A stretch of DNA of 64,000 nt from Boseongicola sp. SB0665_bin_10 (GTDB lineage: Bacteria; Pseudomonadota; Alphaproteobacteria; Rhodobacterales; Rhodobacteraceae). The DNA lies in the NCBI GenBank assembly GCA_009838075.1, contig VXSG01000044.1:26545-90544 (forward strand). Direction: 5' to 3'. Below the pieces are notes generated by a model. The model was given only the letters and a program-made list of their open reading frames with translations, was not told the origin of the DNA and did no database searches. Shown piece after piece: positions 1,628 through 57,756 of the stretch. Each line of letters starts with the position of its first letter. The stretch's first letter is position 1. The translations under genes were made by a program, and so were the position numbers.

Positions 1628-2836
1628 ATGTTGCACAGAAGTCTCGCAAACCTGGCTGCTGCAGGTGCATTGGCAGCCGGCCTCATGACGGCGGGCGCCG
1701 GGTTTGCCCAGGATGTCATCAAGGTGGGCGCGATCGCCCCCAAGACCGGTCCGCTCGCAGGCGGCGCGGTCGTCACGCAATGGCCGAACATTCGCTTGTG
1801 GGTTGAGCAGGTCAATGCCCGCGGCGGGCTGAATGTCGGTGGCACGAAAATGTCCATCGAGTTGATCGAGTACGACGACAAGACCAATCCGGGCGAACAC
1901 ATCAAGCTGGCTCAACGCCTTGCGGAGCAGGACAAGGTGGATTTCGTTGTCGCGCCTTACGGCACCGGGTTCAACATTGCCGCCGCGCCGATCTACGGTC
2001 GCTACGGCTATCCCATGGTCGCGGTCTCGGCCATCACCGACAAGATGGAGGAGCTTACGGCGCGGTACCCAAACCTCTTCTTCACGCTTGGCACGACGAC
2101 GGCCTTCGTCGAAGGCGTGAGGGACATCCTGGTGGAACAGCGCGAAGCGGGTGCCATCGGAAACGAAGTCGCAATGGTCAACGTTGCCGATGCCTTCGGG
2201 ATCGAACTGGCGGACCGCGCGCGCGAGCTCTTCGGCGAGGCGGGATTTGAGCTTGTCTATGACAAGTCGTACCCCCTTGGCACACCGGACCTGAGCCCGG
2301 TGATGAAGGGTGCCAAGGCCTCCGGCGCGAAGGCGTTCGTGGCTTGGTCCTATCCGCCGGACAGCTTTGGCCTGGCTGAACAGGCCATTGTCGAAGACCT
2401 CGATGTGGCCGTCTACTATTCGGCGGTTGCCACCAGCTTCCCGTCTTTCAGCGGCGCCTTTGGCAACAAGATCAACAACGTGCTTGGCGCCGGCGGCACC
2501 AACGTGGATGACCCGGCCATCGCGGAGTACCGCAATGCCCACATGGAAGTCACCGGAAAGGTTGCGGACTACTGGGCGTCTGCCAACACCTACGCGGCGC
2601 TGCAAATCCTGGAACAGGCGATTGTCGGGGCCGGCACGCTCGACCGGGACGCGGTGACCCAATACATCAAGGACAACAGCTTCGACACGGTGATGGGCAC
2701 GCTCAGCTTCAAGAACAACTTCTCCAACACCTTCTGGTCCGTGGGCCAGTGGCAGGACGGAGTGTTCCGCGGAGTCAAGGGCTCAAACGTCGAAGGTGCG
2801 GTGCCGGTGCGCCTGAAAGACGGCTGGGCCGAGTAA
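1628..2836 (+). CDS. Branched-chain-type ABC transporter, periplasmic substrate-binding protein
   Basis: This is the periplasmic receptor of a HAAT/LIV-type ABC importer (Peripla_BP_6 fold), 402 residues. The ATG at 1628 follows a strong GGAGG site and begins a signal peptide (MLHRSLANLAAAGALAAGLM ... FAQ); the mature start DVIKVGAIAPKTGPLAGG is the typical first strand and ligand loop of the family. It is the first gene of a set with two permeases and two ATPases on the same strand, but is separated from the permease by an extremely G/C-rich spacer. Family members bind amino acids, amides, urea or aromatic acids. The downstream alcohol and aldehyde dehydrogenases hint at an aromatic or other non-amino-acid substrate; the ligand cannot be read from sequence. 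Confidence 0.9.
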   Translation: MLHRSLANLAAAGALAAGLMTAGAGFAQDVIKVGAIAPKTGPLAGGAVVTQWPNIRLWVEQVNARGGLNVGGTKMSIELIEYDDKTNPGEHIKLAQRLAEQDKVDFVVAPYGTGFNIAAAPIYGRYGYPMVAVSAITDKMEELTARYPNLFFTLGTTTAFVEGVRDILVEQREAGAIGNEVAMVNVADAFGIELADRARELFGEAGFELVYDKSYPLGTPDLSPVMKGAKASGAKAFVAWSYPPDSFGLAEQAIVEDLDVAVYYSAVATSFPSFSGAFGNKINNVLGAGGTNVDDPAIAEYRNAHMEVTGKVADYWASANTYAALQILEQAIVGAGTLDRDAVTQYIKDNSFDTVMGTLSFKNNFSNTFWSVGQWQDGVFRGVKGSNVEGAVPVRLKDGWAE

Positions 2837-3012
2837 TCCCCGATACGGCCGTCCGGCGCGGCTGCGCCGGGCCGCCGCGGGGGGGCGCCCCCCGGGCGGG
2901 CCAGACGGGGCGCGGGGGGGGGCGGGGCGGCCGTAATCCCGGCGGGCCCGTTTAAGCCCGTATCGGCCGGTCGGGGGGGTAGGCGCCGGGCGGCCGCTTG
3001 CGGAAGCCGACG
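2837..3012. repeat. Extremely G/C-rich spacer with nested inverted repeats
   Basis: The 176 bases between the binding-protein stop and the permease start have long G and C runs unlike the rest of the window. They contain a perfect 14-base palindrome GGGGGGCGCCCCCC (2880-2893), and a nine-base inverted pair, CCGATACGG (2840-2848) and CCGTATCGG (2958-2966), that encloses almost the whole spacer. A highly stable RNA fold between the first and second genes of the operon is therefore likely. It could limit transcription or protect the 5' message so that more binding protein than permease is made. Mis-assembly at homopolymers is also possible. Confidence 0.6.
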
Positions 3013-3879
3013 ATGCTGGACATCCTGGTCTCTGGCCTCTTGCTGTCAGGCACCTACGCCCTGGTCGCAATGGGCCTGAACTTGCAGTACGGCGTGGCCC
3101 GGATCATGAATCTCGCGAATGGCGAGGTGCTGGTGCTGGGCGCGTTGGCGGCGTTCTGGCTCTATACGACCGCGCTGGTCAGCCCGCTCTTGACGGTGAT
3201 CCTCGTGATTCCCGTGAGCTTCGTCGGCAACTGGCTGGTCTATCGCTTCCTGCTGACACCACTCGTGCGCCGGGCCAGGTCGCAAGGTGCGCTGGAAGTG
3301 GATTCCATCCTCGCAACCTTTGGAATGTCGTTCATCATCATCGGCCTGATGATCTCGGTTGAGGGCGGGTTCTTTGCCTACAACTATCTCAGCGAACCTG
3401 TCTCGATCATGGGCTCGACAACTTCGCTGAACCGGGTGCTGGCCTTCGCAATTGCCGTCGTGATCGGGGCTGCCCTTTACCTTTGGCTCAACCTGAGCCG
3501 GCCCGGCGTTGCAGTGCGGGCCGTTTCGGTTTCGGCCGAGGCTTCCGGACTGGTCGGCATCAACGTCCCGCGCGTTTCGGCACTTGCCTTCGCGCTAGGC
3601 GGAGCGATCACCGCCGTGGGCGGGGCACTGATCTCGACGTTCATCACCCTTGATGCCTCCATCGGCGTGGTCTTCACCATGAAGGCGCTGATCATCGTGA
3701 TCATGGGCGGCGTTGGAGACATCCGCGGAGCCATCGTGGCTGCCGTCATCCTTGGCGTCGTGGAAACGGCGGTCGCCAGCCTCGTCGACCCGGGGCTTAC
3801 GCTCGCGGCCGCATACCTGATCTTCGTCCTGATCCTCCTCTTCCGACCGCAGGGCCTGTTCGGAAGGCGCGTGGCGTGA
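3013..3879 (+). CDS. Branched-chain-type ABC transporter permease, LivH class
   Basis: Integral membrane permease of the LIV-type importer, 288 residues and mostly hydrophobic, with about eight predicted membrane spans. The segment MGLNLQYGVARIMNLANGE near residue 20 is the standard LivH-class signature, and the C-terminal loop with GGVGDIRGAIVAA carries the coupling-helix region that contacts the ATPases. I chose the ATG at 3013 over an upstream TTG at 2998 because the family starts with MLDILVSGLL. The stop overlaps the GTG start of the next permease (GTGA), so the two are translationally coupled. It pairs with the LivM-class protein to form the channel. Confidence 0.93.
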   Translation: MLDILVSGLLLSGTYALVAMGLNLQYGVARIMNLANGEVLVLGALAAFWLYTTALVSPLLTVILVIPVSFVGNWLVYRFLLTPLVRRARSQGALEVDSILATFGMSFIIIGLMISVEGGFFAYNYLSEPVSIMGSTTSLNRVLAFAIAVVIGAALYLWLNLSRPGVAVRAVSVSAEASGLVGINVPRVSALAFALGGAITAVGGALISTFITLDASIGVVFTMKALIIVIMGGVGDIRGAIVAAVILGVVETAVASLVDPGLTLAAAYLIFVLILLFRPQGLFGRRVA

Positions 3880-4808
3880 AGTCCGCCAGTTGGACAGAGC
3901 TCCTGTGCGCAGCCATTCTCGTGGCGCTTGCAGCACTGTTTCCGCTGGGGGCGAACGGCTACTGGCTGTCCATCGGCGTGACGGCCATGATGTATGTGGC
4001 GCTGGCCACGTCCTGGGCGCTGTTTTCCGGTCCGACGCATTACATCTCGCTCGCCACCGGCGCATTCTTCGGCGTGGGTGGATACATCGTCGGCACGGGG
4101 ATGAGCGACTATGCCCAGTCCTTCTGGCTCATGGCCGCGGTCTCTCCGATTGTCGGGGCGATCCTCGCAGCGCTGATCGGCTTCGCCACCCTGCGCCTGT
4201 CGGGGGTCTACTTCGTGATCTTCACTCTCGGCCTGGCGGAGATGATCCGCAACGTCGTCAGCTGGGTGCAGAACAACTTCCTGGGCAGCCGCGGGCTCTA
4301 CGTGCTGACAGACCTGCGTGACCACCACATCTTCTGGATGCTGCTGGCCGTCGCCGCAGTGGTCTACCTGCTCGGCTGGTGGGTCAGCCGATCCCGAATC
4401 GGCTTTGCGCTTCGCATCATCGGCGGCGACGAAACCGTCGCGCGCCACGTGGGCATCAACACCGCGACGGCAAAGGTCATCCTCTTCACCACCACGGGCT
4501 TCTTCGCGGCCCTCGTCGGCGCCCTGATCGCGCCGAGATGGAGCTACATCGAACCGAACCAGGTCTTTTCCCCCCAGTTGAGCTTCCTCGTCGTCATCAT
4601 GGCGCTCCTGGGCGGGTCCGGCAGGCTCTGGGGGCCGCTGGTCGGCGTGATCCCCTTCACGATCATCTGGGAATGGGTCGCGGTCCAGTTCCCCAACCAG
4701 TCGACGCTCTTCCTCGGCGTCTGCTTCCTGCTGATCGTCTACGTCCTGCCCAACGGCGTCGTCGGGCGGATCGGAGAGTTGCACGCTCGGATCAGGGGGC
4801 GGACGTGA
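3876..4808 (+). CDS. Branched-chain-type ABC transporter permease, LivM class
   Basis: Second integral membrane permease of the importer, 310 residues. Motifs typical of the LivM class are visible: the early YVALATSWALFSGPTHYISLA region, GLYVLTDL in the periplasmic loop, and near the C-terminus MALLGGSGRLWGPLVG, the cytoplasmic coupling loop. It starts with GTG at 3876 overlapping the previous stop, and its own TGA overlaps the GTG start of the ATPase gene, so permeases and ATPase form one tightly coupled unit. It is partner of the LivH-class permease in the transmembrane channel. Confidence 0.93.
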   Translation: MKSASWTELLCAAILVALAALFPLGANGYWLSIGVTAMMYVALATSWALFSGPTHYISLATGAFFGVGGYIVGTGMSDYAQSFWLMAAVSPIVGAILAALIGFATLRLSGVYFVIFTLGLAEMIRNVVSWVQNNFLGSRGLYVLTDLRDHHIFWMLLAVAAVVYLLGWWVSRSRIGFALRIIGGDETVARHVGINTATAKVILFTTTGFFAALVGALIAPRWSYIEPNQVFSPQLSFLVVIMALLGGSGRLWGPLVGVIPFTIIWEWVAVQFPNQSTLFLGVCFLLIVYVLPNGVVGRIGELHARIRGRT

Positions 4809-5542: not shown

Positions 5543-6665
<1,123 letters not shown>

Positions 6666-50770: not shown

Positions 50771-51691
50771 ATGACTCACAAGATATTCGGCCACAAGTCA
50801 CCTGACACCGACTCCACCGGGTCGCCCATCATCTGGGCCTGGTACCTGAACGAGTGCCGCAACGTCCCGGCTGAGGCGCGACTGCTTGGCGAACCGAATG
50901 CCGAGGCCCTGTTCGTGCTCGAGCGCTGGAATCTCGACAAGCCGGAGATCCTTGAAGATGTGGGGCCGGGTGACAGCTGCATCATCGTCGACACGAACAA
51001 CGTCGCGGAACTGCCTGAGGGCATCAACGACGCCGACGTGATCGAGGTGATTGATCACCACATGCTGCAAGGCGGGCTGAAGACGAGGACGCCGATCGCC
51101 ATCACTGTCCGCCCGCTGGCCTGCACGGCCACGATCATGCACGACCTGATGGGCGACGATGCCTCCAGGATGCCGCATGCGATCAAGGGCGCGATGCTCT
51201 CCTGCATCCTGAGCGACACGCTTGAGTTTCGTTCTCCGACAACGACCGACGCCGACCGGGCGGTGGCGGAACGTCTTGCCGGGGAACTGGGACTCGACAT
51301 TGCGGAATACGCGAAGGAGATGTTTGCCGCCAAGTCCGACGTCTCCGGCTACACGGACGCGGAATTGCTGCGCGTGGATGCCAAGGTCTACGAAGTGGAC
51401 GGCACGAGCCTCCGAATCTCGGTTTTTGAGACGACATCGCCGTCGAGCGTGCTGGACCGGAAAGCGGGCCTGATGACGGAGATGGAGACCGTAGCCAAGG
51501 AAGACGGCGTCGACCAAGTCCTGTTCTTCCTCGTGGACATCCTGTCCGAGGAGGCCACCCTCTTCATTACGAATGACATTGTGCGGCGCATCGCCGCCAA
51601 GAGCTTCGGGGTCGAGGCCGACGGCGACCTTGCCACGCTGCCTGGAGTGGTCAGCCGCAAGAAGCAGATCATTCCGGTGTTGAAAATCTGA
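50771..51691 (+). CDS. ppaC: Manganese-dependent inorganic pyrophosphatase (family II)
   Basis: Hydrolyses pyrophosphate to phosphate. The 306-residue protein has the DHH-family motifs: IFGHKSPDTDS near the N-terminus, CIIVDTNN, EVIDHHMLQGG, and the C-terminal DHHA2 domain with VLDRKAGLMTEME and SRKKQIIPVL, where the basic residues bind substrate. ATG 50771 (MTHKIFGHKSPDTDS) is preferred over upstream starts. The HAD hydrolase gene follows three bases later, and the two are presumably cotranscribed. Confidence 0.95.
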   Translation: MTHKIFGHKSPDTDSTGSPIIWAWYLNECRNVPAEARLLGEPNAEALFVLERWNLDKPEILEDVGPGDSCIIVDTNNVAELPEGINDADVIEVIDHHMLQGGLKTRTPIAITVRPLACTATIMHDLMGDDASRMPHAIKGAMLSCILSDTLEFRSPTTTDADRAVAERLAGELGLDIAEYAKEMFAAKSDVSGYTDAELLRVDAKVYEVDGTSLRISVFETTSPSSVLDRKAGLMTEMETVAKEDGVDQVLFFLVDILSEEATLFITNDIVRRIAAKSFGVEADGDLATLPGVVSRKKQIIPVLKI

Positions 51692-51694
51692 GGC

Positions 51695-52567
51695 ATGGTT
51701 CCGATAGTCGACAGCCTGTCGGAGATCGCCGACCGCTACGACGCGCTGTTCTGCGATCTATGGGGATGCGTGCATGACGGTGTGAGGGGCTTTCCCGAGG
51801 CCATCGATGCGCTCCGCGCCTTTCGCGCCGAGGGCGGCAAGGTCGTGCTCCTGACAAACGCTCCGCGCCCGCGCGCGGGCGTGGAGCGGCAACTGGAGGC
51901 ACTTGGGGTTCCACCTGATTGCTGGGACACGATTTCCACGAGCGGTGACAGCGCCCGGGTTGCGATGTTTCGCGGCGTCATCGGCAATCGCGTCTGGTTC
52001 ATGGGGCAGGACCACGACCTGCCGTTCTTCGAACCGCCTGCAATCGTCCTCGACCCCGTTGACGTGCGCCTCGCCGAACTCGAGGACGCGACCGGCATTG
52101 CGTGCCTCGGCCCGTTTGACGCGCATGCGGACCCGTCCGAGAACCGCCCCGAATTCCTCCATGCCAAGCAGAAGGGCCTGAAGCTTCTCTGCGCGAACCC
52201 TGACCTGGTGGTTGACCGCGGCGAACACCGCGAATGGTGTGCCGGCGCGCTTGCCCAGCTCTACACGGAAATGGGTGGCGAGAGCCTGTATTTCGGCAAG
52301 CCGCACCCGCCGGTCTACGCCTTGGCGAGGGAAAGGCTGACGCAGATCGGGGAGCAGGTGCCGGACGAGCGGATCCTGTGCATCGGCGACGGCATTCAGA
52401 CCGACATCCGGGGCGCCTTGGGAGAGGATCTCGACTCCCTGTTCGTGACAGGAGGGTTGGCGCGCGCGCAAACGGCAACCACTCGCCAGCCGGAGCGGGG
52501 CGCCCTCGACGCATTCATCGCTGAAGCCCGGATGACACCGACATATGCCGTCGGCTATCTCAGATAG
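51695..52567 (+). CDS. HAD-superfamily hydrolase, TIGR01459-like (NagD/class IIA type)
   Basis: 290-residue HAD phosphatase. Motif I is FCDLWGCVHDG, with a DxWG variant typical of the subfamily, motif II VVLLTNAPRP, motif III lysine in YFGKPHPPVYALA, and motif IV ILCIGDGIQTDIRGA. The cap insert between motifs II and III places it in class IIA. The physiological substrate is unknown. It follows ppaC with a three-base gap and overlaps the next transporter gene by 23 bases. Confidence 0.88.
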   Translation: MVPIVDSLSEIADRYDALFCDLWGCVHDGVRGFPEAIDALRAFRAEGGKVVLLTNAPRPRAGVERQLEALGVPPDCWDTISTSGDSARVAMFRGVIGNRVWFMGQDHDLPFFEPPAIVLDPVDVRLAELEDATGIACLGPFDAHADPSENRPEFLHAKQKGLKLLCANPDLVVDRGEHREWCAGALAQLYTEMGGESLYFGKPHPPVYALARERLTQIGEQVPDERILCIGDGIQTDIRGALGEDLDSLFVTGGLARAQTATTRQPERGALDAFIAEARMTPTYAVGYLR

Positions 52568-53441
52568 GATCGATGTCCCGGCAATTCTTGGCGGGCTGGC
52601 CTTTGCCATCATCTGGTCTTCTGCATTCACGTCGGCCAAGATCATCGTCACCAACGCCCCGCCCCTGGCGGCCTCAGCGGTCCGGTTCCTCATTGCGGGC
52701 CTGATCGCCCTGGCGTTGGCCCGCATCCTCGGGCAGAGATTCACGTTGACTCGCCAGCAATGGCAGATGACGGTCCTCTTCGGAATTTGCCAGAACGGCC
52801 TCTATCTGGGCCTGAACTTCGTCGCCCTGAAGACGGTTGAAGCTTCCCTGGCATCCATCATTGCGTCCACACTGCCCCTGCTGGTCGCGTTTGCCGGCTG
52901 GCTCATCTCGAAAGAGACCCTGCGACCACTGGGCATTGCGGGGCTGATCGGCGGTATGGCGGGGGTCATCCTGATCATGGGAACGCGGCTGACCCAGGGA
53001 GTCGATCCGGTCGGCATTGCGCTGTGCGGGATCGGGGCGCTGGCCCTGACCTTTGCCACGCTTGCGGTCAAGGGCGCATCCTCGGGTGGCAACGTCATGG
53101 TGGTCGTGGGGTTCCAGATGCTGATCGGGAGCGTCGTGCTCTGGGTGCCTGCGTTGGCGCTCGAGACCTGGGTCGTCAACTGGTCGGTCACGTTCGTGGC
53201 CGCATTCCTCTACACGCTTTTCCTGCCTGGACTGCTAGCGACGCTGGTCTGGTTCTGGCTGGTCCGCCGCATTGGCGCTACGCGAGCCGCCACGTTCCAT
53301 TTCATGAACCCGTTCCTCGGCGTGGCCATCGCTGCGGCCTTGCTGGGCGAGGCCATTGGCGTTCTCGACGTCATTGGTGTCGCGATCATTGCGCTGGCCA
53401 TTCTCGCCGTGCAACTCTCCAAGTCGGAGACAGCGACGTAA
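52545..53441 (+). CDS. EamA-family (DMT superfamily) transporter
   Basis: 298-residue inner-membrane protein with ten predicted spans in two EamA repeats (starting near GLAFAIIWSSAFTSAKIIV and, in the second half, GALALTFATLAVKGASSGG). The end of the second repeat, FHFMNPFLGVAIAAALLGEA, is a standard signature. EamA proteins export amino acids or other metabolites. The start lies inside the HAD gene; a GTG-type junction is not needed as ATG 52545 is in frame. The first of the two 24-bp direct repeats begins six bases after its stop. Confidence 0.9.
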   Translation: MPSAISDRIDVPAILGGLAFAIIWSSAFTSAKIIVTNAPPLAASAVRFLIAGLIALALARILGQRFTLTRQQWQMTVLFGICQNGLYLGLNFVALKTVEASLASIIASTLPLLVAFAGWLISKETLRPLGIAGLIGGMAGVILIMGTRLTQGVDPVGIALCGIGALALTFATLAVKGASSGGNVMVVVGFQMLIGSVVLWVPALALETWVVNWSVTFVAAFLYTLFLPGLLATLVWFWLVRRIGATRAATFHFMNPFLGVAIAAALLGEAIGVLDVIGVAIIALAILAVQLSKSETAT

Positions 53442-53446
53442 CGCCC

Positions 53447-53470
53447 TTCGGCAAGATGCGGCTCGCGATC
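53447..53470 (+). repeat. 24-bp direct repeat, left copy
   Basis: Begins TTCGGCAAGATGCGG and ends CTCGCGATC. It is identical over 24 bases to 55683-55706. The copies bracket the DUF488/dual-OB module, which has a lower GC content than the DNA outside. Sequences beyond the repeats differ. This is what one expects for duplicated target or attachment sites, though a dispersed genomic repeat is also possible. Confidence 0.75.
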
Positions 53471-53576
53471 ACGGCCCAGGCTGCGCGCCTTGCGCCCGCC
53501 CTCAGTGACGGTCAACGCACGGTCGCTGAACCGCATGAAGATCCCTGCGGACGCTGTCAGCCCCGTCGGGCAGAAC

Positions 53577-54044
53577 TCATGACGCCGAGTGCCCTTTGCG
53601 ATTGTTCATCCCAAGGTGCTCGACTTCCAATCCACCCCAATGCCTGTTCAGGTACTCTGCGACAAGCCGACGATGACAATGGTGCGGCTGGTCCTCGCTG
53701 CAAAGCAGACAACCGTCGCGCACATCCTCCCTTGACAGCTCGGTCTCGATCCTCCGCTCCTTCATCAGGGCATTGAACCGGGTTTCGTAGGAGTCCCAAC
53801 TGATGTGACCCTGTCGATATCCGCTCAACAATTCCTTCGTGGGCGCCAAGCTCGGCACATGCACATAGTCGATGCCGCAAAGCTCGCGCGCGAACCAAGC
53901 GAGATCGGCCTTCTTTGCGAATCCGGCAAGCTGCGAAGCATTGTGGAGCCTCACGTCCACAATGCGCCTGGCACCCGAATCGCGCAGAAGCTCGAAGAAC
54001 TGCTTGGCTGACTTCTTGGTAAAGCCAATGGTCAATACCTTCAT
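53577..54044 (-). CDS. DUF488 family protein (second of two)
   Basis: 155 residues, DUF488 fold. Characteristic parts are MKVLTIGFTKKSAKQFFELL at the N-terminus, RRIVDVRLHNASQLAGFAKK, YVHVPSLAPTKELLSGY, and the cysteine motif CLLCSEDQPHHCHRRLVAEYL. The CxE..P..CHR motif is invariant in the family and suggests a metal or nucleotide site, but no activity is established. The start overlaps the stop of the other DUF488 gene (ATGA), so both are translated together. Lower GC than the flanking genes. Confidence 0.88.
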   Translation of the reverse strand: MKVLTIGFTKKSAKQFFELLRDSGARRIVDVRLHNASQLAGFAKKADLAWFARELCGIDYVHVPSLAPTKELLSGYRQGHISWDSYETRFNALMKERRIETELSREDVRDGCLLCSEDQPHHCHRRLVAEYLNRHWGGLEVEHLGMNNRKGHSAS

Positions 54045-54688
54045 GGAGCCTCCATCTCAGCCAATTCGCTCTCACGTTCGACGGCATGGCCGACGTTCTT
54101 GGCCTGAAGGTCAATGGCCCTCCTGACACGCTCCATGCGCGGTTCGTCCCGATTGATCAGATCGTAGTCGTCAAGACCGAACTTTGCGAGCAGACGATCC
54201 ATTGCGTCCGCATGCGGTTCTAGAGGCTTGTCAGGCAATATGTGGGCGACATCGACGCCGAGCCTGTCCAGCTCGTGCCCAACGAGAAGCGTTCGATGAC
54301 AGTCAAGTGGTTCCTTCTCCGCGCACATCAAGGCGATGCGGTAGTCTTCCGCACCACGCACAATTCTCTCCAGACCATCGCGAAATCGCGCAGTGTTCGA
54401 GAGCCTGTCGTAGCGAATGCGACCGCGTTCATAATGTGAACGGTCGTCAGAACGCCCGCCCAATTCCCGTCCAAGATACACGTAACTGATTCCCGAACCC
54501 TTGAGCGATTCAGCAAGCCGCTCACGATTGAATTGCGAATTGAAGCGGCTATACGGCGACGAGCGCACGTCCACGAGGGCAGTCACGCAATGCGCGTCAA
54601 GCAGCCCGACGAAGAACTCCAAGTCATGGTTCGAGTGACCGACCGTCAGGATGGTTTCTGCAATTTCACTCATGGTGTCATCATCCAT
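54041..54688 (-). CDS. DUF488 family protein (first of two)
   Basis: 215 residues. Features are ILTVGHSNHDLEFFVGLLDA, VTALVDVRSSPYSRFNSQF, YVYLGRELGG, and the motif LMCAEKEPLDCHRTLLVGHEL, matching the second DUF488 protein in the module; this one has a C-terminal helical extension of about 60 residues. ATG 54688 overlaps the end of the dual-OB gene; ATG 54673 is an alternative. Part of a three-gene module with the broken dual-OB gene. Function is unknown. Confidence 0.88.
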   Translation of the reverse strand: MDDDTMSEIAETILTVGHSNHDLEFFVGLLDAHCVTALVDVRSSPYSRFNSQFNRERLAESLKGSGISYVYLGRELGGRSDDRSHYERGRIRYDRLSNTARFRDGLERIVRGAEDYRIALMCAEKEPLDCHRTLLVGHELDRLGVDVAHILPDKPLEPHADAMDRLLAKFGLDDYDLINRDEPRMERVRRAIDLQAKNVGHAVERESELAEMEAP

Positions 54689-55354
54689 CAGATTTGATTA
54701 TGGCAGCAATGAACTTGTATATGTAGTCCTCGAACTGTTCCCCAATGCTGACTGTGAGATGGCATTTGCCGTATCTATAGGTGCCGTCGCGCTTTGCCAG
54801 AAAGTGTCGCTCGCAAACCGGGTCGGTAATCCAAAACGCATAGTTCTGATCAGCATGACGGAAACTGCCCTGAACGCGTCTCTTGGAGTTGCCGAACGCT
54901 TCACCGGGCGCAAAAACGCTCAGTGTGACGGCATTGGCCGAAATCAGCCGCAGGGAACTGGTATCTGTCCGCTCGCCTTGACAGGAATCCTGTCGTTGCA
55001 TCCATGATAGGTGCTGTAGCCATCAACCCAAAGCGGCTTCACCGGATCAACCAGTGAGGGAAGATCCGATGGCAAGTGGACACCGATCTTCCTCCAGTAA
55101 CTTGCCGGATCAAGCAGCCAGTTCTCCGTTTGACAGCCAACAGGCTTCGGCCCCAACATTGGAACTTCCATGATGTCGAGAACCCGTGGGTCACTCCCGT
55201 CCTCCTATTGGCGTTCGTCCTCCGACACCTCCTGATTCTCGCGTTCGCTTACAGGTCGAATCCAGCATCCCCCTGCCTTTCCTGGCCCCAACCGCTTGCC
55301 CGCGATGCACCGGCCCTTCAGCTTTCGGGAATTTGCAAGGCACACCATCTGCAT
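54681..55354 (-). pseudogene. Dual-OB-domain-type protein, broken by a stop and a frameshift
   Basis: A protein of about 220 residues can be rebuilt from three pieces. From ATG 55354: VCLANSRKLKGRCIAGKRLG, GGCWIRPVSERENQEVSEDE, then an in-frame TAG at 55205-55207. After it the same frame continues with GSDPRVLDIMEVPMLGPKP, QTENWLLDPASYWRK, and LVDPVKPLWVDGYSTYHG, and ends at 54944. The coding signal moves to the next frame around 54965 and runs on: SLRLISANAVTLSVF, EAFGNSKRRVQGSFRHADQ, ITDPVCERHFLAKRDG, ending at 54681. I recognise it as the protein often encoded beside DUF488 genes and named for two OB-like domains. Sequencing error cannot be excluded. Confidence 0.7.
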
Positions 55355-55682
55355 CGACGCTTTCTCTTTCTGCGAGACACCCAAGGTGCCGGTCCTGAAA
55401 TCTCCGCAACGGCACACTGTTTGAGGTTCCGGAAATGTTGCAAGAAGCCACACCCGAGTGTGCCGGAGAAGGGCTGCGACAGAGCCGGTGGAGAATGTTG
55501 GTTTGACAGAATGGCCGCTGAAAGGCTCTCCAATGCCATAAGTTCAATCGGGTGGCTCTTCATGCAGTCACGCCAGGCAGGCTTGCCGGTCCCTGCCAAG
55601 TGCGCAAGCCGCCCGTTGGCGGGTGTCAGCCCGCGACGGTGGCCTTCTTTGTGTGCTGCCCGTTCCGAAAGCCAGGACACCT

Positions 55683-55706
55683 TTCGGCAAGATGCGGCTC
55701 GCGATC
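55683..55706 (+). repeat. 24-bp direct repeat, right copy
   Basis: Identical to 53447-53470 over 24 bases, same orientation, 2,236 bases apart. Located 154 bases before the end of the HU gene. See the left copy for interpretation. Confidence 0.75.
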
Positions 55707-55814
55707 GCGGTTCATGCCTGCCCGGACGCGGCGGGGTTTCATGGGTTGATCACTCGGTGCTTCCCGCCATCCTTGCAGGTCAGGTGCGGGATCAGCGCCT
55801 CCGGAACAGGAAAG

Positions 55815-55840
55815 CGGGCCGCGCGACTGCGGCCCGTTTT
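55815..55840. terminator. Hairpin terminator downstream of HU
   Basis: Perfect eight-base stem CGGGCCGC (55815-55822) and GCGGCCCG (55829-55836) with loop GCGACT, followed by TTTT (55837-55840) on the plus strand; on the minus strand the stem is followed by CTTTCC. It can end HU transcription on the minus strand and anything arriving on the plus strand. Confidence 0.7.
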
Positions 55841-55859
55841 GCGTCACCGCTTTCGGCGA

Positions 55860-56147
55860 TCAACTGTTCAAGCTGTCCTTGAGCGCCTTGGCGATTGTCA
55901 TCTTCACCACCTTGTCGGCGTCCTTGTGGATTTGCTGGCCAGTCGCAGGATTGCGAACCATGCGCGCGGGACGTTCGCGGCAGTAGATCTTGCCAACGCC
56001 AGGCAATGCCACGGCCCCGCCGGAAGACACTTCTCTCGAGATGACGGAAATGATCGCGTCCAGTGCCGCGGCTGCCGCCTTCTTTTCACTGCCAAGTTCG
56101 TCGGCGAGCGCCGCGACAAGCTGCGTCTTGGTTAATGCCTTTGCCAT
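55860..56147 (-). CDS. HU-family DNA-binding protein
   Basis: 95-residue nucleoid protein. Recognised by LTKTQLVAALADELG, KKAAAAALDAIISVI, the G.V.LPG(V/F)G.. stretch (GGAVALPGVGKIY), and RPARMVRNPATGQQI, the DNA-contacting arm. HU dimers bend DNA and shape the chromosome. ATG 56147 follows GAGGAGGTTCAGC. A strong hairpin terminator lies 20 bases past the stop. Confidence 0.94.
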   Translation of the reverse strand: MAKALTKTQLVAALADELGSEKKAAAAALDAIISVISREVSSGGAVALPGVGKIYCRERPARMVRNPATGQQIHKDADKVVKMTIAKALKDSLNS

Positions 56148-56277
56148 GCTGAACCTCCTCGTTCCGGCCACTATTGTAGCGCATCGGCCTTATTTTACTG
56201 GATATTGAGGCGTTACGCAAGCTCTTGAGGAACGATTCCTCGTTTGCACCACATTTCGCATGATTTTTCCGTTCATT

Positions 56278-57756
56278 TCAAAGGAATGCAGTCTCCTCGA
56301 AGCTGCGCAGCTTGCGGGAATGTATGCGTTCCAGCGGCATCTCGCGGAGTCTTTCCATGGCACGTATGCCTACCAGGAGATGTTGCGCAACCTGCGTCTT
56401 GTAGAAATCTGACGCCATTCCCGGCAGCTTCAGCTCGCCATGCAACGGCTTGTCGGAGACGCAGAGCAACGTGCCATAGGGCACGCGAAACCTGAATCCA
56501 TTGGCCGCGATGGTCGCGGACTCCATGTCGAGCGCGATGGCGCGGCTCTGGCTCAGCCGCTGAACCGGTCCGGACTGGTCCCGAAGTTCCCAGTTCCTGT
56601 TGTCGATCGTGGCAACAGTGCCGGTTCGCATGATCTGCTTGAGGTCGTAGCCTTCGTATCTGGTCACGTCCGCGACCGCGTCTTCCAGCGCCACCTGGAT
56701 TTCCGCGAGCGCCGGAATGGGCATCCAGACCGGCAGGTCGTCATCCAGGACATGGTCCTCGCGCAGGTATCCGTGCGCCAGGACGAAATCCCCGAGTTGC
56801 TGCGAATTCCGAAGCCCCGCGCAATGTCCGAGCATCAGCCACGCATGGGGTCGCAGCACCGCAATATGGTCGGTGGCCGTCTTCGCGTTCGACGGACCCA
56901 CGCCGATGTTCACCAAGGTTATGCCGGCGCGGTCTGGGCGCTTGAGATGAAACGCCGGCATCTGGGGCAGGTTGGCGGGACGGTCGAGCGGCGCATCGGC
57001 GGAAGTGATCTCGAAGTTGCCCGGACCAACGAAAGACGTGTATCCGCTGTCCGGGTCGGCAAGCATCTTGCGCGCAAAGGCCTCGAATTCGTCCACGTAG
57101 AACTGGTAGTTCGTGAACAGAACGTAGTTCTGGAAGTGATCGGCATTCGTCGCCATGTAGTGGGACAGCCGCGCCAGGGAGTAGTCGATCCTCTGGGCCG
57201 TGAACGGCGCCAGGGGATGCGATCCGTCCTCATAGGTGAAGCCGTGGCCATTGACGATGTCGTCGTTGATCGTTGCAAGTTCCGGCACGTCGAAGACGTT
57301 GCGCAGCGACTGTTCCACGGTGCCGCCCTTCGGAATCTGGAGCGACCCGCCGCTGCCGACGGCAAAGTGCACGGGGATCGGTGTCGTCGAGACCCCGACC
57401 TGCACCGGGACCTTGTGGTGCTCGATCAGGAGCCCGATCTGCTGGATCAGGTAGTTCCCGAACAGCTCCGGGCGCGTGATGGTCGTGGAATAGCGCCCCG
57501 GTTCGATCACGTGGCCAAAGCTCAGCCGCGTGTCCTTCGTCGCGTAGATCTTGGTCGTCAGCCGCAGCTCCGGGTAATATGCGCGCATGCGACGGCGCGG
57601 CATGCCGTTGGCGACGGCGTCATCGAAGCGACCGCGCAGAAACCCGGCGGACACCTGGTACAGGTGAACCAGTCGCTCGACCGCGTCCCCGGCGTTGGCA
57701 AATTCCTCGAATTCCGGAAATTCCGGCGTCTCGATGTGCTGGTTCTCGCCTGTCAT
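56278..57756 (-). CDS. amn: AMP nucleosidase
   Basis: Splits AMP to adenine and ribose 5-phosphate. The 492-residue length is the family norm. Visible parts: N-terminal domain (FRYPELRLTT-like RAYYPELRLTTKIYAT), STTITRPELFGNYLIQQI, and the C-terminal nucleosidase domain with NIGVGPSNAKTATDHIAVLR, LMLGHCAGLRNSQ, and ALDMESATIAANGFRF, which carries the catalytic acidic residues. Its start overlaps the stop of the adenine deaminase gene (ATGA), so AMP is split and the released adenine deaminated by a coupled pair. Confidence 0.95.
   Translation of the reverse strand: MTGENQHIETPEFPEFEEFANAGDAVERLVHLYQVSAGFLRGRFDDAVANGMPRRRMRAYYPELRLTTKIYATKDTRLSFGHVIEPGRYSTTITRPELFGNYLIQQIGLLIEHHKVPVQVGVSTTPIPVHFAVGSGGSLQIPKGGTVEQSLRNVFDVPELATINDDIVNGHGFTYEDGSHPLAPFTAQRIDYSLARLSHYMATNADHFQNYVLFTNYQFYVDEFEAFARKMLADPDSGYTSFVGPGNFEITSADAPLDRPANLPQMPAFHLKRPDRAGITLVNIGVGPSNAKTATDHIAVLRPHAWLMLGHCAGLRNSQQLGDFVLAHGYLREDHVLDDDLPVWMPIPALAEIQVALEDAVADVTRYEGYDLKQIMRTGTVATIDNRNWELRDQSGPVQRLSQSRAIALDMESATIAANGFRFRVPYGTLLCVSDKPLHGELKLPGMASDFYKTQVAQHLLVGIRAMERLREMPLERIHSRKLRSFEETAFL

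Follow-up and report, generated by a model that had tools for sequence, protein, structure and literature searches.

The closest described counterpart of the locus presented here is PDC-M45, a candidate defence system for which models are provided in PADLOC-DB 2.0.0. None of the papers searched names PDC-M45, and none combines DUF488 with a dual-OB protein. DUF488 was reportedly placed in the rhodanese-phosphatase superfamily by a classification of 2023, which is also said to have placed the PTP-fold phosphatases and diphthine synthase there. An archaeal ParB-CTPase-fold protein fused to DUF488-HTH is described as binding CTP (PMC12704722), and bacterial Schlafen genes with the domain pair SLFN_AlbA_2 and HATPase_c_4 are described as linked to BREX (PMC12839542). 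In this work a cassette of one dual-OB gene (DuOB, gene A) and two DUF488 genes (B and C), located between an EamA transporter gene and an HU-family gene, was analysed in Boseongicola sp. SB0665_bin_10 (G000; assembly of 4.8 Mb in 124 contigs). The window, that is the whole stretch of DNA analysed, comprises 64,000 nt (contig VXSG01000044.1, 26,545-90,544), and all coordinates refer to it.

The three-gene cassette and the decay of its DuOB gene

The PADLOC-DB models for PDC-M45 matched all three genes of the window, gene A being submitted only as its C-terminal DuOB piece (54681-55001). The genes are adjacent on one strand in the order A-B-C, as in PDC-M45, and the window shares all three components and this order with 54 of 80 loci found with gene B. 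In the window, however, the three genes are not all intact: DuOB is a pseudogene, with a TAG and a frameshift. It is very probable that the window copy is a degraded member of PDC-M45. The cassette is a known candidate system and not a new kind, with a predicted function in defence.

The match to PF22557 in the DuOB gene was split into three pieces (profile positions 1-45, 59-121 and 126-210). A TAG at 55205-55207 ends the first frame, and a frameshift lies near 54959-54965 (converted from contig coordinates). Since these are two separate lesions, a single assembly error is unlikely. The start of the remnant is taken here as 55354, where an ATG coincides with the first residue matched by Pfam. 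In a comparison of eight genus genomes (G000-G007, the own genome included), an open DuOB was found in G002 only (L094), and in the other cassette-bearing genomes the gene was broken, partial or not found. It was also split in 7 of 55 three-gene loci. For gene C, a test insensitive to some lesions suggested truncation in one such locus, where the contig ends. A programmed frameshift was considered and rejected: the lesions of relatives are scattered (at about residues 54-60, 65-66, 80-82, 87-89, 112-117 and 129-135), which makes ordinary decay likelier. The loss of DuOB in G000 probably leaves the original function impaired.

An earlier note on this stretch had described a segment of lower GC with exactly three overlapping genes. 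The layout was recovered, with the stop of gene B overlapping the start of gene C by ATGA, the 3' end of the DuOB gene overlapping the start of gene B by 8 bp, and two open DUF488 genes, both above the Pfam cut-off; it was the third gene that proved to be broken. The GC content was 53-61% across eight 500-bp intervals from 53500 to 55749, compared with 62-67% on the left (51250 to 53749) and 56-65% on the right (55500 to 57249), the drop being clearer at the left side than at the right. The scan of open reading frames between the repeats recognised nothing besides the two DUF488 genes and the DuOB remnant, and in particular no integrase, transposase or recombinase.

Table 1. Features of the cassette and its borders (window coordinates).
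Feature	Position	Strand	Remarks
EamA transporter gene	52545..53441	+	Borders the site on the left
24-bp direct repeat, left copy	53447..53470	+	Begins 5 bases past the EamA stop codon
DUF488 gene C (PDC-M45C)	53577..54044	-	155 aa, open; Pfam DUF488 and DUF488-N3a; PDC-M45C 2e-68
DUF488 gene B (PDC-M45B)	54041..54688	-	215 aa, open; PDC-M45B 6.5e-75
DuOB gene A (PDC-M45A), pseudogene	54681..55354	-	PF22557 pieces; PDC-M45A 1.3e-31 from the last piece
24-bp direct repeat, right copy	55683..55706	+	Exact match to the left copy
HU-family gene	55860..56171	-	Borders the site on the right; convergent with EamA

Relatives of gene B were collected as the best 80 of 111 loci from a collection in which 84,980 species are represented by a single genome each. 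In 55 of the 80 loci A, B and C lie together on one strand, in the order A-B-C except for L169 (B-C-A). The remaining loci hold B and C (7), A and B (2) or B only (16); in one of the seven B-C loci (L134) a DuOB gene was later found by Pfam. The three genes therefore form a recurrent set, present across numerous bacterial phyla and in line with the functional unit proposed in the earlier note, which had counted either genes that never co-occur or a repeat dispersed over unrelated sites as evidence to the contrary; neither was observed.

Phyla are intermingled in a maximum-likelihood tree of 69 B proteins, in which Pseudomonadota require 16 label changes and Acidobacteriota 9, fewer than with shuffled labels. 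The mixing suggests wide exchange over long times, although mixing as such is no proof of transfer. Within the phylum, B was found in 26 of 398 genomes (E 1e-20) and C in 9 of 398 (E 1e-15), G000 being counted in both cases.

The OB-fold structural matches of DuOB include BrxL, SSB and RPA. No domain fusion of DuOB was seen among 120 matches listed of 2,769, all of which carry PF22557 alone within the length limits of the search. No credible solved homologue was found by sequence for B, C or DuOB.

The two DUF488 genes

A CxEKxPxxCHR-type motif had been ascribed to both DUF488 proteins. It holds for gene B (CAEKEPLDCHR); gene C reads CSEDQPHHCHR, and the EK form is thus confined to gene B. In an alignment of 69 rows the invariant residues of gene B include G17-H18-S19, D40-V41-R42, C122, E124 and C130-H131-R132. 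Those of gene C, in an alignment of 61 rows, include T5, G7, F8, D30, R32, C112, C115, E117, C123, H124 and R125. An invariant cysteine and an invariant arginine are located at a strand-to-helix loop in both proteins (C115/R125 in C and C122/R132 in B) and are putative catalytic residues; in the model of gene C the strand spans 111-115 and the helix 124-136. The structural matches of DUF488, which comprise PTP-fold phosphatases and diphthine synthase, were weak but in line with the reported classification. The invariant Cys/Arg pair at this loop is as expected for the rhodanese-phosphatase superfamily. In view of the reported placement, the earlier description of DUF488 as lacking any known activity is out of date as far as prediction goes.

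Both genes have been under constraint. The dN/dS (nonsynonymous to synonymous divergence) of B was 0.18-0.25 in all six genus pairs, and that of the first 135 codons of C was 0.28, 0.10 and 0.12 from G000 to G005, G002 and G003, respectively. These low values indicate that B and C were constrained for much of the time since divergence, but as averages over the whole divergence they cannot say what the state of constraint has been since the DuOB gene broke.

Carriage of gene C by phages was also considered and set aside, as no match was found at E 1e-10 among 50,697 phage records. A structural search of viral models returned distant DUF488-like proteins, four of them at E 0.001 or better, including those of PhiPA3 and CampHawk.

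The EamA-HU site and its direct repeats

The cassette or its remains were found at the EamA-HU site in six of the eight genus genomes. Genes B and C are present there in G000, G002, G003 and G005. G002 is the sole genus genome with all three genes open; in G003 gene B lies in two frames and no DuOB match was obtained, while in G005 DuOB persists as a remnant and the C protein has a different end. In G004 a piece of DuOB that contains a TGA lies some 5 kb away from HU, and G006 has only the DuOB start, beside EamA. In G001 the site is broken by contig ends and neither A nor B was seen.

Other genes were encountered at the same site. In G005 a 28-kb block between EamA and HU (C58:12625-41107; L052, L063), with apparent metabolic and transport genes, encloses the cassette. 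In the interval from HU to the DuOB remnant, G004 (C522, L180 1028-4721) has genes for an AAA protein and for an AAA-TPR-HTH protein. In G007 the cassette is absent and the site carries a RelE-type gene with an HTH partner (L054 7811-8594). The differing cargo of G004 and G005 marks the EamA-HU site as a plastic region.

The synonymous divergence from G000 to G005, G002 and G003 was 0.33, 0.72 and 0.73 for B, 0.19, 0.41 and 0.43 for EamA, and 0.18, 0.35 and 0.31 for HU. Gene B has diverged faster than its neighbours, at a steady B/EamA ratio of 1.7-1.8, which argues for vertical inheritance since a common ancestor. With its divergence in step with host genes and the same site kept across the genus, the cassette does not look recently mobile. 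Outside the genus, 16 of 23 family loci have an HU gene upstream of EamA in the same orientation (within the 1.5 kb covered), and the convergent junction of the genus therefore looks derived. It had been proposed to look for relatives with a single repeat copy and the segment cleanly missing; no clean empty site was seen in the genus or in the 23 family loci outside it.

The identity of the two 24-bp repeats was confirmed as exact. The accompanying claim that no identity extends beyond them was slightly off, since similarity reaches 41 bp at 85%, the similar stretch around the left copy being 45 bp long (53440-53484). A 27-bp pattern holding the repeat gave no match in 100 dinucleotide shuffles of the window with up to 3 mismatches, and at the same tolerance only two copies occur in the whole of G000. 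A 45-bp model was built from eight copies and run on the eight genus genomes, 150 of the 2,501-3,817 first-look candidates per genome being scored. Eight matches had E below 1e-8; these were the eight training copies, all located at the EamA-HU site, and the next among the matches listed had E of about 1e-3. The repeat is thus not dispersed in the genus, and an origin from a dispersed repeat was rejected.

A copy lies beside EamA in G000, G002, G005, G006 and G007; in G001 this copy is cut by a contig end and in G003 it bears a small deletion. The second, right copy is strong only in G000, G002 and G003, all of them cassette-bearing, and the flank to the right of it differs between genus genomes. 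The repeat regions fold no better than shuffles. An integron gene cassette was rejected, as no TIGR02249 match (E 1e-30) was found in G000, G002 or G003 and no attC-like fold was seen.

Flanking exact repeats of at least 17 bp were found in four of 48 other three-gene loci (L153, L126, L146 and L101), and 236 mismatched flank pairs used as a control reached at most 14 bp. On a Latescibacteria chromosome (L153) a genome-unique, perfect 37-bp direct repeat (4182-4218 and 6052-6088) closely surrounds the three genes, and DuOB is split there too. In Aquaspirillum serpens (L126) the cassette is a unit in a gene array with repeats at 243, 1120, 4024, 6385 and 7252, that is five copies in this locus, with nine matches in the genome. 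The genes of the array are set apart by these repeats and their terminator-like hairpins, which recalls an integron, but a search of the genome for a TIGR02249 integrase at E 1e-30 found none. In L146 the repeat resembles coding sequence and has a third, partial copy, and in L101 it is a 17-mer in three copies.

The pattern of the repeats is compatible with an insertion whose target was duplicated or recombined at its flanks, and also with a rearrangement scar. An old insertion followed by vertical inheritance, with the repeats left as a scar, was judged to have about an even chance of being correct; the repeats would then mark the event that placed the cassette beside EamA.

A possible alternative, held with less than even confidence, is that the repeats are unrelated to the cassette and are relics of a genus-specific rearrangement hotspot at the EamA-HU junction. 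The derived look of the convergent junction and the differing cargo in G005, G004 and G007 speak for it. It is weakened by the fact that the repeat copies of G000 and G002 enclose little besides the three genes, and by the restriction of the strong right copy to cassette-bearing genomes.

It is quite unlikely that the repeats serve as attL and attR for a still mobile element by which the three genes would be moved together. Such an element would explain the copy that stays beside EamA in the cassette-free G007, the two copies that bracket the cassette in G000, G002 and, with a damaged left copy, G003, and the repeat pair of the unrelated host L153, which exceeds anything in the control pairs. 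Yet no recombinase was recognised in the unit, its divergence follows the host, a strong right copy is missing from G005 despite its cassette, the right flank varies and an exact empty site was not seen. A clear unique pair was found in only one of the 48 loci tested (L153), L126 being an array and L146 and L101 having extra copies. The mobile accessory system suggested earlier is retained as regards long-term exchange, to which the mixed phyla of the B tree point, and not as regards current mobility.

Neighbouring genes in relatives and the predicted function

A protein with SLFN_AlbA_2 and a C-terminal HATPase_c_4 domain is encoded directly upstream of A in 17 of 57 loci with A beside B, some of which hold little upstream sequence; two further loci gave weak or distant matches. 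Among 134 upstream genes scanned, Pfam recognised the pair in 13, and one protein of this kind was also checked on its own. All four nearest non-genus rows in the B tree (L095, L096, L097 and L099) have this gene. The model names met for PDC-M45 cover A, B and C only, and no Schlafen gene was found beside the cassette in the window or its genus; G001 has one distant copy (39% identity) elsewhere in its genome. The gene shares its domain pair with the BREX-linked Schlafen genes but is linked to DuOB and DUF488 instead.

The defence role raised as a possibility in the earlier note is consistent with the catalogued candidate PDC-M45 and with a few loci beside restriction genes. Type I methylase and specificity genes neighbour L125, and L132 and L131 have a type IIG enzyme and a CARF protein, respectively, next to them; this check was positive for 4 of 10 chosen proteins and 3 of 7 loci. 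BrxHI and BrxD gave single matches each among 125 downstream neighbours.

On plasmids a C-type DUF488 with 57% identity to gene C was matched in 120 records, of which 78 are predicted to be conjugative. Plasmid records with B numbered 21, and those with DuOB 3. In 82 records with at least 80% of the segment, this DUF488 lies between uvrA and frmR, and a Comamonas plasmid has it beside uvrB with the same formaldehyde-detoxification genes. The three genes uvrA, C-type DUF488 and frmR were seen together on a Kosakonia radicincitans plasmid (L201:5158-9072) and in near-identical Enterobacterales plasmid records. Unlike the cassette, these clusters lacked both DuOB and B in the two stretches examined, and their context is formaldehyde detoxification. 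A literature search found no paper joining formaldehyde, uvrA, frmR and plasmid. Plasmid pLNU-11 (L199:8001-9046) carries a DuOB-like gene and a C-type DUF488, followed by a DUF4326 gene. The same arrangement was found in the genomes of L204 and L207, the DuOB match of the latter being just below the Pfam cut-off. An mSLOG domain was seen on the DUF4326 protein of pLNU-11, the sole protein checked.

As a whole, the locus is read as a decaying PDC-M45 copy, whose intact counterparts are predicted to bind and process nucleic acids, likely against phages or invading DNA; the chances of this reading were judged to be evenly balanced. A biochemical mechanism can be proposed tentatively. DuOB, with its OB folds, would hold a nucleic-acid strand, and the two tightly coupled DUF488 proteins may act as a heteromer. 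Their active site would combine three elements: the loop that follows strand 1, the D-x-R that follows strand 2, and the C-x2-E...C-H-R loop. As cysteine-based enzymes, they could transfer or remove phosphate or sugar groups at nucleic-acid ends. The upstream Schlafen-AlbA_2/HATPase protein, where present, might serve as an extra RNase effector.

Two observations qualify this reading. Gene C occurs in settings without B, so that the defence label is not secure, and the position of the C-type DUF488 between uvrA and frmR on many plasmids makes DNA repair a live rival. The cassette could be a module for DNA-damage or aldehyde-stress repair, in which DuOB would hold damaged single strands and DUF488 would clean DNA ends or adducts alongside excision repair. 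This was considered somewhat doubtful. The uvrA-frmR and uvrB plasmids, the SSB and RPA matches of the OB folds and the low dN/dS of B and C in genomes with a broken DuOB favour it. Most of the 82 records, however, look near-identical (85 of 494 matching records at 99% or more) and count as few events. Nine plasmid proteins, including UvrA, UvrB and FrmA, were used as queries against the 80 B loci, and relatives (E 1e-15) were obtained for the DuOB-like protein alone. The sporadic distribution of B and C and the restriction neighbours fit an accessory role in conflict.

That DuOB is a toxic part restrained by the DUF488 pair, toxin-antitoxin style, and hence is lost first is improbable: DuOB is split far more often than C looks truncated and is open in no cassette-bearing genus genome other than G002, but lesions in B, the search query, are under-sampled, many matches are metagenome bins prone to assembly errors, and the enzyme-like invariant residues are in DUF488 and not in DuOB.

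Defence and repair could also be combined. PDC-M45 would then be a Schlafen-armed defence module that processes DNA ends, and the C-type DUF488 would have been separately recruited, with UvrA/UvrB, into plasmid formaldehyde-resistance clusters. Although this is unlikely, if true, one thiol enzyme would serve both antiphage defence and the repair of aldehyde-damaged DNA.

With the window copy, the candidate system, as yet uncharacterised, gains a degraded example whose natural history can be read. Its relatives provide two leads for DUF488, which are more interesting than the copy itself: the Schlafen gene that heads many copies, and the uvrA-frmR plasmids, which may tie the enzyme to DNA damage. 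From either, the predicted activity of the domain could be assayed directly.
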